Source: an uncultured Victivallales bacterium (GTDB taxonomy: Bacteria > Verrucomicrobiota > Lentisphaeria > Victivallales > UBA1829). From it: 64,000 nt of DNA. Location of the stretch: contig CALXSJ010000013.1 in NCBI GenBank assembly GCA_944391115.1, positions 1 to 64,000 of the forward strand, written 5' to 3'. Under the pieces are notes generated by a model. That model was not told the origin of the DNA. It made no database searches and was given only the letters and a program-made list of their open reading frames with translations. Shown here piece after piece: positions 4,799 to 36,954 of the stretch (the first letter of the stretch is position 1; every line of letters starts with the position of its first letter). Position numbers and translations under genes: made by a program.

Positions 4799-5695
4799 AT
4801 GGGAAAAAAGATTGTTCAAATTCCGGGAGACTACTATTTCCTGCGGGAAACTCTGCCTGTCGCGCTGAAAAAGGTACACGGGAAAATCGTGACGCATCCG
4901 CACGATTACACCGGGGTCCCGCACTGGCACGACTTCTCGGAACTGGTCATTGTCACCGGCGGAAGCGGGCTCCAGAACATCAACGGAACGGTCTATCCGG
5001 TCTCCCGCGGAGACGTCTTCGTCATCACGGGAAAAACGACCCATTTCTTTGAGGAATACCGGAATCTGGAAATCACCAACATCATGTATTCCGAACGGAT
5101 CTTCCGGAATCTCCGGGAATATCTGAAACGGATCCCCGGCTATCATGTCGTCTTCCGCTTCGAACCGGAACTGCGCGGCAGCCGGGAATTCCACAATACA
5201 TTGCACCTTTCCGCGCAGGCGCTGACACATGTGACACGGACCGTGGAAAAAATGAATCTCGAACTGGAAAGGGGGGAACCCGGCTGCGAAGCGGCCGTCC
5301 TCGCGCTGCTCTTCGAACTGATCGTTTTCCTGTCGCGCTCCCTGGACGATCCGCACAGGAGCCGCCACTCCATCACACGCCTCGCGGGGCTCTTCAGCAC
5401 GCTGGAAGCCTCCTATCAGGAGGACTGGCCGCTGGAACGGATGGCAGGAATCGCAGGCATGTCGGTCAACACGCTTCTGCGAACCTTTCAGGCGGTCGCA
5501 AAGCAGACACCGCTGCAATATCTCACCGCCCTGCGCATGAATGCCGCCTGCACGATGCTGGGAACAAGCGACCGCTCCGTTTCCGAAATCGCCTTCCTCT
5601 GCGGATTCCATGATTCCAACTATTTCACGAAACGTTTTCACGCGCAATTTCATCAATCGCCGGGGAAATGGCGCAGGGAATGCGCACGGCAGTGA
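4799..5695 (+). CDS. AraC-family regulator of the xylose operon
   Basis: This 298-residue protein has an N-terminal cupin with the H-x-H and E pattern of RhaS/MelR-like sensors (THPHDYTGVPHWHDFSEL) and a C-terminal AraC domain whose second helix-turn-helix reads SEIAFLCGFHDSNYFTKRF. The ATG at 4799 has no ribosome-binding sequence: the bases just upstream are AT-rich and contain the operator. Translation may be leaderless or weak. It is divergent from xylA-xylB, so activation of those genes by xylose or xylulose is the natural proposal. Confidence 0.88.
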   Translation: MGKKIVQIPGDYYFLRETLPVALKKVHGKIVTHPHDYTGVPHWHDFSELVIVTGGSGLQNINGTVYPVSRGDVFVITGKTTHFFEEYRNLEITNIMYSERIFRNLREYLKRIPGYHVVFRFEPELRGSREFHNTLHLSAQALTHVTRTVEKMNLELERGEPGCEAAVLALLFELIVFLSRSLDDPHRSRHSITRLAGLFSTLEASYQEDWPLERMAGIAGMSVNTLLRTFQAVAKQTPLQYLTALRMNAACTMLGTSDRSVSEIAFLCGFHDSNYFTKRFHAQFHQSPGKWRRECARQ

Positions 5696-31153: not shown

Positions 31154-33949
31154 TCACTTCTCCGGCACGGAAGAAAGCGTCCCGGAGACATAATCCACGA
31201 CAACATCCTCTCCGGCCACATAGAAATACCCCTGCTCGAAAGGACCGATTTCAACGGTAAACGGCACGCGGACAAATTCCGCCGACTGCGGCGCCGTTTT
31301 CAGAACATCCCGGCGGATTTCATGTCCGAACGGTTTCCGGTTTCCGGGTTCGCGGGAGCATCCGCTGAGCCAGATTTCCGCTTTTCCGGAAAGTCTGATC
31401 TCGCCGGAAAATCTCTGCTTTCCGGGCTTCTGTCCGAAATTCAGCCATTGGAGCAGATAACCGTTCCGGATCCGGACGCGGTTCCCCTTGTTTTCCCCGG
31501 GAACCATGGCAACGCCCGAGCCGCCCCATCCCTTCGGGAAACGCTCCGAAAGCACGCCTTTGTCATTCGGATTCTTCGGAACGCTTTCGGAAAAATCCCC
31601 GTTTGTGAAAACATTCGTCCCGGGAAAGACCCGGCGGAATGCGATCTGGTCATGCGGCTGTGTCGCGTCCAGAGATGCCCAGGCGGAGTTTTTCGGAGGC
31701 TGAAGATTCGTCATGGTCCGGTAGAAATGCATCTGCCATGCCTGTCCGGGCAGAATCCGAGCACCGAGCTTTTCCGCCGGAATCCGGATCTCAAGCGAGT
31801 AGCGGTCTTTGCCGGCCGAGGTCTTCACCTCCGCTCCGGAACGGAACGAGGCATCGCGCATTCTCGCCTGATACATGGTTCCGATGCTGTTGACGATCCA
31901 GTGAAAGTAGTCGCCGCCGGGAGGCGCGATGAAAATCTCGACGGAATCGTCGGTCCAGACGGGATCGCCGGGGTTCTTCGCATCCGCCTTGAGTTTGCTC
32001 CAGGCATGTTCCGTCATGGCTTCGATCCCGATGTACCAGTTGTTCTCGTCATAAAGCACCTTGACACGGGTCTCCTCGGCAGGCTCGGTCCTGTTTTCGC
32101 CGAGAAATCCCGGAACAAGCGGCGCCTTGCGCCAGGCGTCTTCGTCCAGACGGCCGTCAATCCGGATCTCCCCGGCTCTGGCGGCAACGGGGATATAATT
32201 CTGTCCCGACAATGCGGCCCGCACTTTTTCCGCGGCTTTTTTCCAATGCAGATTCAGGTTGTCCTCGTCGATCGCAATCCGTTTCAGCAGGATTTTGTCG
32301 CCGCCCGCCAGCTGCCGCGCTTCGGCGAGAGAGGCGCGGAGACGCTTTTCCGCCTCGGGAGAACTCAGACAGTAGCCGATCCGGTTCGGACCGCCGTACA
32401 ACGCATGCCCGGGCGCGCTCTCCCAGAGTTCGCGCCGAAAACGCTGATACCGCTTCATGGGAGCGGAAGCTTTGCCGTAATACATCGTGCAAAGCTCGTC
32501 CATGAGCTTTTCAACATCCTGATCGGCATCCCAGAGCAGCTTGGAGGCGACATAATAGAATGTCCAGTTCGAGTGAAGATAATGCACATCGGCGTAGGTG
32601 CAGTCCTCGATCCAGGTGTCGAGTTTCACCTTCTTGTAGAACTTCGCGTCTTCGGCGAACACATATTCAAAGGGGGCGTAAGGCGAGCGCGCGGAACAGT
32701 AGTAGTCGAAAATCCCGATTTTCGGATACAGTTTGCGCCAGGATTCAAATTCCTCATGAAAACGCTTGTTGCAGTCGCTGTCCTTTCCGGCAAAGGGATG
32801 AACATAGCAGCGCTGATGCGGACAGTAGGTCGCACCGAGACGCTTGTCGTAATGAATCGTCTTGTCCGATGGAATGGAGCGGAACTGGGAATACATGTCC
32901 ACGCTGAGTTCCGCATCGGGCACCTGGCGGTAGACTTCCCCGGCGATTTCCGAGGAGAATCTGTGCGCCAGGTCCGGAATGGAGAATTTTCCGTTGACCG
33001 TCCCCATCGCGATACAGCCGGGGCACATGCACCAGCCGTCCGTGGAATCATGGTAACTGATCGAATAGCGGCCGCCGTACCGGGCCATTTCCGCGACATA
33101 GTCGGCAACCATCCGCTTGACGCGGGGATTGGAAAGACAGCGCTGGGACCGCTCTTCGCAGACCCATTTCCCGTTTTTGAACTGGAACAGTTCCGGGTCC
33201 GTCTTGAAGAGACGGCGCGGAACCGCCTGCTCGAACGTCAGGTGCCCGCCTCCGGAAGGAAGCGCGTTTCCGCCTTCATAGCGGGCAAGGTCCTCGCGGC
33301 TCCGGTCCGGATACTGGAACCAGGCGCCGTGATGCATCTTGTTCCGCCGCATCCAGAGCTCCACTTCCTCCATGCTCCATGGTTTCGCGGCGTCCTTCCA
33401 GGTGGAGATGATCCTGTGCCGCACATCCGGCTCTTCGAAGAGGTCGATCTCCGGAAGCGTCACATCCGCCTTCCGCGGCACGACTTCTCCCTCCGGGCCG
33501 GGGTGGAACCAGCGGACATTCAGATATTTCTCCAGAAAGGTGTAAGCGCCGTAGAGCGCGCCGATCGGCTTCTTTCCGGCGATGATGATGCGCGGCCCGG
33601 CCGTCCTGATGTAAAACGCCTGATCCCCGGCGGATTCCAGTTTCGCAGCCATTTCCGGCGGCACGAGCCTCCGCCCGTTCTCCAGCGTCACAACGAGAAT
33701 TTCCAGAAGACCCGGATTCTCCACCGTTCGCGTGAAAACCGCCGGATAACAGGAACGCCGGAAGTCCACGCCCGTGATCTTCCGCAGATATGTCTGCAGT
33801 TCCACGGCGGCATCGAATTCAGGCGCGCCCGGACGCGGCATCTGCTGGATGACGGCATTGCTTTTCCCGTTGGAAACCAGCGGATACTCCGCGGAAAACA
33901 GGACAGAACCGAACAAAAAGGATAAAAACACCGGAAACAGACGTTTCAT
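31154..33949 (-). CDS. Secreted DUF4838 protein with C-terminal CBM9-like domain
   Basis: This 931-residue protein starts with a clear signal peptide (KRLFPVFLSFLFGSVLFSA). The N-terminal part resembles the alpha-glucuronidase/hexosaminidase accessory fold (VELQTYLRKITGVDF; GALYGAYTFLEKYLNVRWF), followed by the DUF4838 TIM-barrel-like region (YHDSTDGWCMCPGC). From about residue 625 (EIRIDGRLDEDAWRKA) a CBM9-type carbohydrate-binding domain follows, then a beta-rich end. DUF4838 proteins are common in gut glycan degraders; the exact bond cleaved is not established. The start at 33949 has AAAGG upstream. It lies 77 bases after the pseudopilin and 68 bases before the GH42 gene. Confidence 0.88.
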   Translation of the reverse strand: MKRLFPVFLSFLFGSVLFSAEYPLVSNGKSNAVIQQMPRPGAPEFDAAVELQTYLRKITGVDFRRSCYPAVFTRTVENPGLLEILVVTLENGRRLVPPEMAAKLESAGDQAFYIRTAGPRIIIAGKKPIGALYGAYTFLEKYLNVRWFHPGPEGEVVPRKADVTLPEIDLFEEPDVRHRIISTWKDAAKPWSMEEVELWMRRNKMHHGAWFQYPDRSREDLARYEGGNALPSGGGHLTFEQAVPRRLFKTDPELFQFKNGKWVCEERSQRCLSNPRVKRMVADYVAEMARYGGRYSISYHDSTDGWCMCPGCIAMGTVNGKFSIPDLAHRFSSEIAGEVYRQVPDAELSVDMYSQFRSIPSDKTIHYDKRLGATYCPHQRCYVHPFAGKDSDCNKRFHEEFESWRKLYPKIGIFDYYCSARSPYAPFEYVFAEDAKFYKKVKLDTWIEDCTYADVHYLHSNWTFYYVASKLLWDADQDVEKLMDELCTMYYGKASAPMKRYQRFRRELWESAPGHALYGGPNRIGYCLSSPEAEKRLRASLAEARQLAGGDKILLKRIAIDEDNLNLHWKKAAEKVRAALSGQNYIPVAARAGEIRIDGRLDEDAWRKAPLVPGFLGENRTEPAEETRVKVLYDENNWYIGIEAMTEHAWSKLKADAKNPGDPVWTDDSVEIFIAPPGGDYFHWIVNSIGTMYQARMRDASFRSGAEVKTSAGKDRYSLEIRIPAEKLGARILPGQAWQMHFYRTMTNLQPPKNSAWASLDATQPHDQIAFRRVFPGTNVFTNGDFSESVPKNPNDKGVLSERFPKGWGGSGVAMVPGENKGNRVRIRNGYLLQWLNFGQKPGKQRFSGEIRLSGKAEIWLSGCSREPGNRKPFGHEIRRDVLKTAPQSAEFVRVPFTVEIGPFEQGYFYVAGEDVVVDYVSGTLSSVPEK

Positions 33950-34026
33950 AAGGAGCCTTTCTTGTAAGAGCTTGCAACTCAATAGTACTGAAGATTGGAT
34001 GTCCGGTCGGGAAGTCCGGAACACGG

Positions 34027-34788
34027 CTAGGAATACCAGATTTCATTCGCGGTCCAGACACCCATCTGCGAGATTCTGAGAGCCCGGACGCTGCCGTCCA
34101 CGAAGAGCATGTTCTCCCGCCCGCTGTGCGCATAATAAAACTCGGCAGTATCAGCTCCCGCGGCACAATGGAAAAACATCAATGCGGAAGGATGACGGAC
34201 GGATCCCGGCTGGAAAAAGGCCTGTTTTGCACTCCAGTAATTATCACACCAGGCGTTCCAGCCGCATTTGGCATTGGTATAGCATGCCAAACCCGGACAA
34301 GTCGGTGTAAAAAGACAGCCGTTCATACTGTAGGTTGTGTTTCCACTGATAAACTGCGTACCGTCGCTTCTGACGCTGACAAATTTAAAAACTCCGGAAT
34401 CGTTGATATTGGTGATCGCAGTCTGACAGATGGTTCCCTTGTAGAAATCGGGATCGAATTTCTTGATGCCGTTTTTCACATAGATATCCAGAACTGTGCC
34501 GCCATAGTCCGGCATGGAGCGTTTGGCCGGATGCCATCCCTTGAAGGAGTCGGCGTACAGAGTCGCCCAGATGTTGATCTGCCGAAGATTGCTGTAGCAG
34601 TTGATGTCGCGCGCCTTGTCCCGGGCTTTCGAAAGCGCGGGGAGAAGAAGTCCGGAAAGAATCGCAATGATCGCAATAACGACCAGGAGCTCAATCAATG
34701 TAAAATCCGCAATATTCCGCTTTTCCGGAACGGGGATCCCTGTCCCGACTGCACCGGCTCTTTCCTTCGAATCATTGATGTGGAACAT
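34027..34788 (-). CDS. Type II secretion-type pseudopilin, H-X9-DG family
   Basis: This 253-residue protein has a 28-residue leader, then [16 protein letters not shown] with Glu at mature +5, and near the end [14 protein letters not shown], an H-X9-DG motif. The residue before the expected cleavage is Asp, again not Gly. A perfect AAGGAGG ribosome site is 5 bases from the ATG. A consensus promoter drives it, and it is the first gene of an operon with a DUF4838 protein and a GH42 beta-galactosidase, which ties this pseudopilin to glycan use. An AraC gene is divergent from it, as at the locus near 1 kb. Confidence 0.92.
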
Positions 34789-34935: not shown

Positions 34936-34967
34936 AACAGGAATAACAGAAATGATTGAGAAATGCC

Positions 34968-35801
34968 ATGGGTTATTATGATGACATCATTTTCCTGGAC
35001 TGCGGGGAGTATCCGGACTACCGCACTTCGGTCTTCATCACGCCGCGCAAGGAGCCGCAGTGGGAATTCGCGCTCCATACGCGCGGCAATCTGATCCTGC
35101 AGAGAGACCGGGGCCGGATTCAGCGCTTCTCCTCTCCGGTTCTCTTCTGGCGGGCATTCAATCAGTATTACCGCCACGGAATTCCGGACGGCGAAAGCCG
35201 CGGGCATCTGTATCTGGTGACAAGCGGATCCCGGGCGGAACGGGCCTACCAGCATCTGGCAAAACTGTTTCCAGAAGGCTTCCTGCCTCTGGAGGAGGAG
35301 AGCGAATCCTTCCGGAAAATTCTCGCCGTAATGCGGGAAATCCTGAATACGGTATGGCTCAATGATGAAAAGCAGAAACACATCGCCGCCTCCGGATTCG
35401 AAACCCTGATTGCGGAGGCAACCCGGATCTATTACAGCCGCCGGCCTGATTACGCGGACAACAACAGAATGCTGAAACTGGCCGATTCCATCCGTGCCAA
35501 CCCGATCCGTGACTACGATTTTCAAAACGTCATTGCGCAGCAGTTCGGCATGTCCTATCATTCCTTCCGGGCGCTCTTCCGGAAAGCGACGGGAAAAGCG
35601 CCCCGGCAGTTCGTCATGAAATGCCGTCTGCATTATGCGCTGGAACTGCTGAATTCCACAGACCTGCAGGTAAAGGAAATCGCGGACCGCTGCGGATTTG
35701 AAAACCCCATCAGTTTTTTCCGCTTTTTCAAAAAGAGTGTCGGAGTCACTCCCCTCCACTACCGGCATCACCTGCACAGCGATTATCTTCAGCATCTTTG
35801 A
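34968..35801 (+). CDS. AraC-family regulator of the GH42 locus
   Basis: This 277-residue protein has an N-terminal beta-rich sensor domain (residues about 10-90) and a C-terminal AraC domain (VIAQQFGMSYHSFRALFRKATG; VKEIADRCGFENPISFFRFFKK, then V-T-P-L-H-Y). The ATG at 34968 is about 25 bases downstream of the predicted transcription start, with a weak GAG ribosome site. It is divergent from the pseudopilin-DUF4838-GH42 operon, so it probably activates that operon in response to a galactoside. Confidence 0.88.
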   Translation: MGYYDDIIFLDCGEYPDYRTSVFITPRKEPQWEFALHTRGNLILQRDRGRIQRFSSPVLFWRAFNQYYRHGIPDGESRGHLYLVTSGSRAERAYQHLAKLFPEGFLPLEEESESFRKILAVMREILNTVWLNDEKQKHIAASGFETLIAEATRIYYSRRPDYADNNRMLKLADSIRANPIRDYDFQNVIAQQFGMSYHSFRALFRKATGKAPRQFVMKCRLHYALELLNSTDLQVKEIADRCGFENPISFFRFFKKSVGVTPLHYRHHLHSDYLQHL

Positions 35802-35904
35802 CTCCGCCAGCAGGTTCCGCAGGGAAAAGCCCGGAAAAACATGCGGATTTCTTCCGGTTTCCGGGAAAAAACACGATTTTTTTTATTTTTTCTTGAAAAA
35901 AGAC

Positions 35905-35933
35905 TTGCATTTCCGGAAAGAGCCGCTTATAGT
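35905..35933 (+). promoter_or_regulatory. Promoter of the small RNA gene
   Basis: TTGCAT (35905-35910), 17-base spacer, TATAGT (35928-35933). The start is expected near 35940, exactly where the closing stem of the RNA begins. Confidence 0.75.
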
Positions 35934-35940
35934 GGTGGTC

Positions 35941-36045
35941 AGGAAGCAGGCAAACGAGCTCCGAATAAAAATTGCATAGGGGCTGCAAAGCCTTAAGGTA
36001 CATAGTAAGTTGGAGCGAATAATGTTCCCCTGCTTCCGTTTTTTT
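35941..36045 (+). ncRNA. Free-standing structured small RNA, about 105 nt
   Basis: No protein gene fits here, yet the segment has its own promoter and an intrinsic terminator. The 5' end GGAAGCAGG (35942-35950) pairs perfectly with CCTGCTTCC (36029-36037), which is followed by G and seven Ts. Inside, GCTCC (35959-35963) pairs with GGAGC near 36012-36016, and a 6-bp stem (35979-35984 with 35989-35994) is capped by a GCAA tetraloop. The closed ends, internal bubble and terminal hairpin recall the layout of 6S RNA, but it is shorter than typical 6S RNAs (about 150-200 nt) and I cannot match it to a known family. It lies between an AraC gene and a convergent lipoprotein gene. Confidence 0.72.
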
Positions 36046-36129
36046 ATTGCCCCGCGGCAGGATTCCCTCTCGTGAAATATCTCCGTTTTCCCCCGTATCG
36101 CTGAAAGACGGATGCTTCATGCTGGAAAA

Positions 36130-36753
36130 TCAGAATTCATAGACGGTGACCGCGTCCACGGTATCCTTCATATCCATATTGTGCGAAGTAAAGGGAACGA
36201 GCAGTATGACCCAGTTGTTGTACTGGGCGCTGGAATTGACTTTGGAAATGGTTGCGACAGGAACGCGGTCGCGGGCATTGAAGACATTGAACGCAAAATG
36301 CCCGTATGCCATGCGCTTGACACGTTTGAGAAGCGGAATTTCGGGAACGGCGAACGTCAGATCGGTATAGGGAACCGGAATCGGAAGCGACGGCGTCCCG
36401 ATGATCCAGCTGTCATGATCGGTGGCAAGCACGCCGCAGAGAGGCTGAATCATGATCTCGGCCTGTTCCTGTTTTGCGACGATCACGCATCCGGCTTTTG
36501 AAAGTTCCATCTCCATTCTGCCCTGCACATAGGGTTTGTCGACCTGCGGTGCGAGGTAGCTGTAATCGAGAAACACCTTTCTCCCGGCGAATTTGCCCAG
36601 TCCGGCATTGGCAAGCGCCCGTTCGACGGTCGTGGCAATCAGATACTGCTCCACGGCGGAACGCTGCGTATTGGTCACCCAGGGCGTCGTGCAGCCTGAT
36701 CCGAACGCCGTCAGGGCTATGCAGAAAAGCAACAAGTAAAATTTCACGGTCAT
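36130..36753 (-). CDS. Lipoprotein of unknown function
   Basis: This 207-residue protein has a signal peptide ending in a lipobox (TAFGSGC), followed by TNTQRSAVEQYLIATTVERAL. It resembles a family of PVC-group lipoproteins known only as conserved hypotheticals. It alternates helix and strand without transmembrane segments after the anchor. The start at 36753 is supported by a promoter ending at 36807. It is a single gene, convergent with the small RNA gene. No function can be assigned. Confidence 0.75.
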   Translation of the reverse strand: MTVKFYLLLFCIALTAFGSGCTTPWVTNTQRSAVEQYLIATTVERALANAGLGKFAGRKVFLDYSYLAPQVDKPYVQGRMEMELSKAGCVIVAKQEQAEIMIQPLCGVLATDHDSWIIGTPSLPIPVPYTDLTFAVPEIPLLKRVKRMAYGHFAFNVFNARDRVPVATISKVNSSAQYNNWVILLVPFTSHNMDMKDTVDAVTVYEF

Positions 36754-36806
36754 CCTTCCCTTCCGGCAGCAGCCGGGCTTCCCACCATGGAAAACTGGAA
36801 AAAGGT

Positions 36807-36834
36807 AATATACCTGATTTCCGCGGAATTTCAA
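36807..36834 (-). promoter_or_regulatory. Promoter of the lipoprotein gene
   Basis: On the minus strand TTGAAA (36834-36829), 16-base spacer, TATATT (36812-36807). Confidence 0.65.
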
Positions 36835-36954
36835 ATCACGGGAAAAGAATCCATGCATTCCCCGGACCGGAACGGGGAAAACCGGCATGAGGAAGACACT
36901 TCTGCAAGGGAGAAGCCTTCCTCCGCCGGAGCCCGGGAGTGCCTCCCCCCCCGC

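Follow-up and report, generated by a model that had tools for sequence, protein, structure and literature searches.

The window, i.e., the whole stretch of 64,000 nucleotides analysed here, from an uncultured Victivallales bacterium, contains a real stand-alone gene for a small RNA of about 105 nt, with a conserved promoter, a conserved fold and a class-wide spread. The RNA family is new to Rfam 15, while the kind of mechanism that we propose for it is already known. We incline to the view, in the absence of any expression or binding data, that this RNA is a natural miniature RNA-polymerase-binding RNA that works like 6S RNA. The initial annotation of this DNA had described a free-standing structured RNA whose ends close on each other and had suggested that it could be lineage-specific, and the comparative data support this interpretation. 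The features of the gene are the following:

35905-35910 and 35928-35933, + strand: promoter read from the sequence, with the -35 box TTGCAT, a 17-nt spacer and the -10 box TATAGT.
35940-36045, + strand: small RNA gene, about 105 nt, its start inferred from the -10 box and its end from the T run.
35942-35950, + strand: 5' strand of the closing stem P1, GGAAGCAGG, pairing with 36029-36037 and showing changes on both sides in relatives.
35959-35963, + strand: 5' strand of helix P2, CTCCG, beside the bubble (CTCTG in most relatives).
35964-35978, + strand: 5' bubble strand, 15 nt, the proposed template for a product RNA (template role inferred).
35979-35994, + strand: apical hairpin P3 with a GCAA loop at 35985-35988; three of the best-covarying pairs lie in P3.
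35994-35999, + strand: proposed -10-like TAAGGT at the fork of the 3' bubble strand, where A35995 would be position -11 and T35999 position -7.
36011-36015, + strand: 3' strand of helix P2, TGGAG, placed by the alignment.
36029-36037, + strand: 3' strand of P1, CCTGCTTCC, pairing with 35942-35950 and also serving as terminator stem.
36038-36045, + strand: G followed by T7 (T7 = 36039-36045), the tail of an intrinsic terminator, read from the sequence.

Both promoter boxes given by the initial annotation, TTGCAT and TATAGT at a spacing of 17 nt, are indeed present and are kept in relatives, but the -35 box of the window is weak (3/6 identity to TTGACA) and a simple promoter scan of the window reports none at the RNA gene. 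The promoter claim rests therefore on the relatives: both boxes stand at the right distance in 53 of 86 loci (shuffled mean 4.6, maximum 11), whereas shifting the test by 20 nt in the upstream direction leaves only 4/86, and the -10 box alone is found in 70/86 loci against 18.9 expected from shuffles. At the 3' end of the RNA, a T5 run is present in 56/86 loci.

Two mechanical ORFs cross the gene (35698-35979 on the + strand and 35746-36120 on the - strand). They do not represent a protein gene, because the relatives keep the helices and differ from each other by insertions and deletions. The upstream neighbour is a gene encoding an AraC-type regulator with HTH_18 and HTH_AraC domains (34956-35801, + strand), and the downstream neighbour is a DUF6655 gene (36130-36888, - strand). 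A riboswitch or leader function has been ruled out in the window, since the DUF6655 gene that follows lies on the opposite strand, convergent with the RNA. Within 400 nt of the RNA, none of the protein families recurs in more than five of the 80 loci surveyed, many of which are cut by contig ends, and those families that do recur are local. AraC-type regulators adjoin the RNA in 5/80 loci, with differing orientation. At L127, L137, L139, L142 and L143, all five from family f10, the RNA is preceded at a distance of 43-152 nt by the end of a long gene of a single family, oriented like the RNA.

The overall shape of the RNA comprises a closing stem, a central bubble and an apical hairpin of 5-6 bp. 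The elements that had been described from the window alone, i.e., the nine-base closure in which GGAAGCAGG pairs perfectly with CCTGCTTCC ahead of G and T7, the second helix and the 6-bp stem with its GCAA loop, are all there. The 103-nt RNA folds at -36.8 kcal/mol compared with -23.6 +/- 3.3 for 200 shuffles (z -3.99, 0/200 shuffles as good), and a looser stretch of 141 nt gives a z of only -2.0, with 6/200 shuffles as good. In a 15-row alignment that was not fitted to the structure, 98.7% of the cells pair versus 90.1% in shuffles and 7/21 pairs have changed on both sides; the measure of further pair types was reached by 22/500 shuffles and the other measures by none. Model-fitted alignments give 97.0% pairing cells with 17/21 pairs changed on both sides (42 distinct rows) and 97.3% with 15/19 (43 rows), the both-side-change measure being reached in the 43-row set by 8/500 shuffles and the other measures by none. 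The pair counts of alignments A4-A7 lean to the model because they were fitted to it, and A2 and A3 were not fitted.

The largest alignment has 86 rows and represents 84 loci (92 rows minus 6 antisense matches). L132 was excluded for a strong antisense match, and other loci to avoid redundancy with the same genome or a close relative. Covariation was one of the checks that the initial annotation had proposed, and under a tree-simulated null, whose substitution model was entered by hand and not estimated, no column pair outside the proposed helices P1 and P3 ranks among the first ten of 4371, and six of these ten have an E of at most 0.01. P2 shows no covariation signal in these 86 rows; it is almost invariant, with C, T, C and G of its 5' strand conserved at 0.98-1.00, and is supported by invariant complementarity only. 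The + strand is the functional RNA, since there are 148 G-U cells and only 10 A-C cells. A pairing ACAAU/AUUGU across the bubble, seen by eye, was discarded, as it is not kept in all rows. It can also be seen by eye that in L010, L016, L017, L018, L020 and L021 the 5' part can form a local hairpin GUUCA/UGAAC, which to judge from the letters would compete with P2 and possibly represent a release conformation.

A DNA search found the RNA in 21 of 100 relatives, and a first covariance model (R1) was built from 15 of the 21 matching genomes, leaving out six close copies. R1 detects the RNA in 100/137 genomes of the order (E up to 0.05). A second model (R2, 43 sequences) finds it in 109/387 genomes of a phylum sample and a third (R3, a more diverse set of 43 sequences) in 118/387, both with E up to 0.01; in the window all three models match at 35939-36042. 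By class, the R3 matches fall in 118 of the 131 genomes of the window's class and in 0/256 outside it, and thus the conservation in relatives that had been named as a further check is met throughout the class. The class size of 131 was taken from the R3 results as arranged by kinship (118 matches plus 10 genomes of the order and 3 of the class without a match) and agrees with the R2 search. Whenever a search covers more than 40 genomes, its filters are stricter and weak matches are lost. The R2 matches are 90-135 nt long. With R3, 112 of the 118 genomes have one match, five have two and one, G374, with a genome of 7.3 Mb, has seven. Tandem copies of the RNA were observed at L135 (5001-5277) and L118 (4895-5097); at L135 each copy appears by eye to have its own -35 and -10 boxes. 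A strict core pattern searched in 84,980 named species returned 8 records, of which 7 are titled Lentisphaerae, Lentisphaeria or Victivallales and 1 Kiritimatiellota, in keeping with the Victivallales origin guessed initially. Having found only 8 records, this pattern must miss many members.

Comparison with Rfam 15, another of the proposed checks, gave no family at or above its gathering threshold in the window and 0 matches up to E 1 in the loci of seven relatives. Nine sub-threshold matches (the best TeloSII_ncR43, E 0.0011) all lie outside 35939-36042, most of them in the A/T-rich tract upstream, and we dismissed them as effects of base composition. A search of the accessible literature found no paper on this RNA, judging by titles and the beginnings of abstracts. 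The small SRP RNA (RF00169) is likewise of about 100 nt, but it is encoded separately in this genome (C17:45847-45944, 50 bits, the sole RF00169 match; the control responded in 11/14), so that this identity was rejected. Acido-Lenti-1 (RF01687) is reported from Lentisphaerae (PMC2864571); its model has 46 positions and gives no match to this RNA. Separately, the class genome locus L204 has, near pheT, an Acido-Lenti-1 match close to threshold at 4970-5034 on the - strand (35.4 bits, cut-off 37). A CsrA sponge was set aside by eye only, as the GGA motifs sit in stems.

The distribution of the RNA is the complement of that of detectable 6S RNA. RF00013 (E up to 0.001) matches none of the 131 class genomes (control responding in 4/14), whereas outside the class it matches 192/256, with 139 of these exceeding the cut-off. 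It has no match in the window or in the window's own genome (control responding in 5/14). Thus, this RNA and RF00013-detectable 6S divide the phylum sample without overlap. This pattern probably reflects one historical event, and if that event took place at the base of the class the complementarity counts once. Moreover, 64 of the 256 genomes from elsewhere in the sample also go unmatched by RF00013, and a lack of matches inside the class can therefore mean divergence and is no proof of absence.

In form, the RNA shares with 6S (RF00013) the closing stem, the central bubble, the apical stem and a stand-alone gene. P2 is a helix of the CUCUG/CAGAG type adjoining the bubble, and CTCTGA, present in 56/86 rows here, occurs likewise beside the bubble in 8/19 6S RNAs of the sister classes, as judged by eye from their folds. 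However, 6S has about 180 nt (about 160-200) versus about 105 nt here, and it carries a -35-like region in a long apical arm, in place of which this RNA has the 5-6 bp hairpin without such a region.

The 5' bubble strand measures 13-17 nt in the 86 rows (15 nt in 51 of them) and the 3' strand 12-22 nt. The letters GAAYAA, CAUC and UUA are kept in the bubble strands across the class, the pyrimidine of GAAYAA in 83/86 rows. Among 56 representatives under 75% identity, the three best-kept bubble columns are A (1.00), U (0.93) and U (0.91), and their positions suggest that they might be the -11, -7 and -12 letters of a fork-placed U-A-nnn-U, like the -10 element of a promoter. TAnnnT stands at the fork in 69/86 rows (48/56 representatives), with the -11 A kept in 86/86; other offsets reach at most 14/86, and shuffles have a mean of 4.4 and a maximum of 12. 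Since the pattern was noticed after the alignment was made, this test is post hoc. We propose that the outermost P3 pair 35979:35994, which is G-U, A-U or G-C in 84/86 rows, is the -12 pair. In 38/43 rows a purine of the 5' strand is available to the -7 U for a G-U or A-U pair across the bubble, and this pairing could explain the conservation of that U without sigma. The fork-placed element is a feature of this RNA: in the 6S of the sister classes UAnnnU is found somewhere in 7/19 stretches with no fixed place (the fork judged by eye), and hence it does not look inherited from them. Comparing the UAnnnU of the RNA with the -10 boxes of the loci themselves provides no evidence, because these boxes were picked requiring A and T at those places.

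If the RNA binds polymerase, the rod made of P1/P2, the central bubble and P3 would imitate an open promoter, P3 representing its upstream edge and P2/P1 its downstream duplex, and sigma region 2 would recognise U-A-nnn-U as the -10 element. The RNA would hold the polymerase as a decoy, and the enzyme could copy the 5' bubble strand into a short product RNA. This product would start near the pyrimidine of GAAYAA (35966 in the window), which could template a purine start, and would run into P2. Synthesis of the product would then open P2 and release the RNA. A more detailed scenario, which seems to us a serious possibility somewhat short of being probable, is that the class (Lentisphaeria and neighbours) traded a 6S of about 180 nt for a minimal form of about 100 nt, without the -35 arm and with a near-consensus UAnnnU -10 at the fork, retaining the regulation of the polymerase and a release via a product RNA begun near GUUCAGAG (AUUCGGAG in the window).

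A precedent for such a minimal form is experimental. In the portion of Ganapathy et al. (PMC8876501) available to us, 6S-1 variants of 78 and 82 nt lacking the -35 region bind polymerase about ten-fold more weakly, still template pRNA and get released, the B. subtilis 6S-1 RNA, when cut down to 78 nt, still goes through the basic 6S cycle in vitro, and a -10-like region of the 3' bubble strand is counted among the key recognition elements. Thus, the observation that this RNA is short for 6S was correct, but size alone does not exclude a 6S-like function. The engineered B. subtilis RNAs 6S78 and 6S82cp share with it, as far as the same portion goes, the bubble, two short arms and the lack of a -35 region, but they are laboratory constructs, whereas this RNA is natural. 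The same source also states, in what could be accessed of it, that in E. coli gel-resolvable binding was lost once the apical stem had been truncated, and the short apical hairpin of our RNA, too short for a -35-like region, counts against a 6S-like function. Ms1 and CoRP of Actinobacteria (PMC9130861, PMC11077062) are likewise lineage-specific RNAs where 6S has not been found, according to the accessible parts of these papers; however, they have about 300 and about 500 nt and their polymerase binding was established by experiment, whereas binding is only inferred here. It has also been proposed, in the accessible part of PMC11077062, that each species has one abundant polymerase-bound RNA, which is not always 6S or Ms1.

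If bound by polymerase, the RNA would support that proposal and would demonstrate that natural RNAs, like those studied in the test tube, can do without the -35 arm. It would also be the smallest natural 6S-type RNA of which we are aware. The RNA is a candidate polymerase-bound RNA for a class where RF00013 has detected no 6S, and it offers a concrete sequence for testing in cultured Lentisphaerae.

Among the other explanations, the one that survives best, in our opinion an unlikely one that nevertheless deserves attention, is that the RNA is part of another, unidentified RNP or sequesters a protein, the bubble letters being the site of a protein unrelated to sigma. The specific letters kept in both bubble strands (GAAYAA, CAUC and UUA) would be explained in this way, the purine-U pair across the bubble in 38/43 rows would suit a structured protein-binding internal loop, and the size and mostly single copy of the RNA fit as well. 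Bacterial Y RNAs likewise have about 100 nt and paired ends. However, their Ro60/TROVE partner is over the cut-off in 0/137 genomes of the order, with 1/137 below it and none in the RNA's own genome, and for this reason we ruled them out (the control responded in only 1/14 in this search). An RNP would also have to do without a recurrent neighbour, given that no protein family comes within 400 nt in more than 5/80 loci, and it leaves the UAnnnU at the fork as a coincidence.

A trans-acting antisense RNA, whose bubble strands would pair with messenger RNAs without the aid of Hfq, appears less likely still. It would be in accordance with the RNA's own promoter and terminator, its A/U-rich exposed strands and its free-standing gene. 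Nevertheless, the exposed letters are conserved across the class although its members should differ in their targets, both strands are held within a covarying rod, and Hfq was found in 0/137 genomes of the order (control responding in 5/14), the latter result also making an Hfq-dependent antisense RNA unlikely.

We consider it very improbable that the true 6S of the class lies elsewhere, too divergent for RF00013, and that this RNA has a further role. Such an oversight is conceivable in view of the 64/256 genomes that RF00013 misses even outside the class, but not one of the 131 class genomes matches the model, and the places where 6S might be expected did not yield it either. In the sister classes, 6S lies in a conserved neighbourhood and is flanked by pheT (12/19 loci) and rarA (11/19 loci), gene names that, as those of the other neighbours, we assigned from the protein sequences. 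In 18 class genomes pheT was found in 18 and rarA in 17; in the 17 with both they are non-adjacent, the nearest being about 23 kb apart (G287), and in many class drafts they are on different contigs. The Rfam scan gave no 6S match at the 12 of 18 pheT loci and the 14 of 20 rarA loci scanned in class genomes. As for the reading that all this is only an intrinsic terminator or a chance inverted repeat, P1 does double as the terminator stem and the stand-alone scan finds no promoter, but class-wide conservation, the conservation of the promoter and covariation refute it.

Returning to the proposed polymerase-binding RNA, it is a different question whether it descends from 6S, and we regard this as perhaps possible but doubtful, as it remains unproven: there is neither a covariance-model cross-match nor shared synteny. 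Its neighbourhood differs from that of 6S, since in 80 loci the RNA touches the 6S neighbourhood of the sister classes twice, once beside pheT in divergent orientation (L075) and once beside xseA (L061), and it adjoins rarA in none; two contacts are too little to argue shared synteny. With the filters off, R2 gave seven weak matches in eight 6S loci of the sister classes, none of them marking the 6S gene. The best one (E 0.027) is a short inverted repeat away from 6S. Another (E 8.3) lies on the strand opposite to a 6S gene and overlaps its edge. Accordingly, no cross-match between the RNA and 6S was obtained by covariance models in either direction.

Two observations on the surroundings of the gene can be added. 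A prepilin-like protein is encoded at 34027-34788 on the - strand, with a DUF1559 start just over the cut-off and an N-terminal methylation motif just below it, and its gene lies near an AraC regulator and a DUF4838/CBM9 protein (31154-34024). In addition, the A/T tract and CTTGCA box at 35877-35909 recur in the same genome at G000:C17:9976-10008 (L023), with 91% identity over 33 bases, where this second copy precedes another putative reading frame; the recurring tract looks like a shared upstream element of strong promoters.
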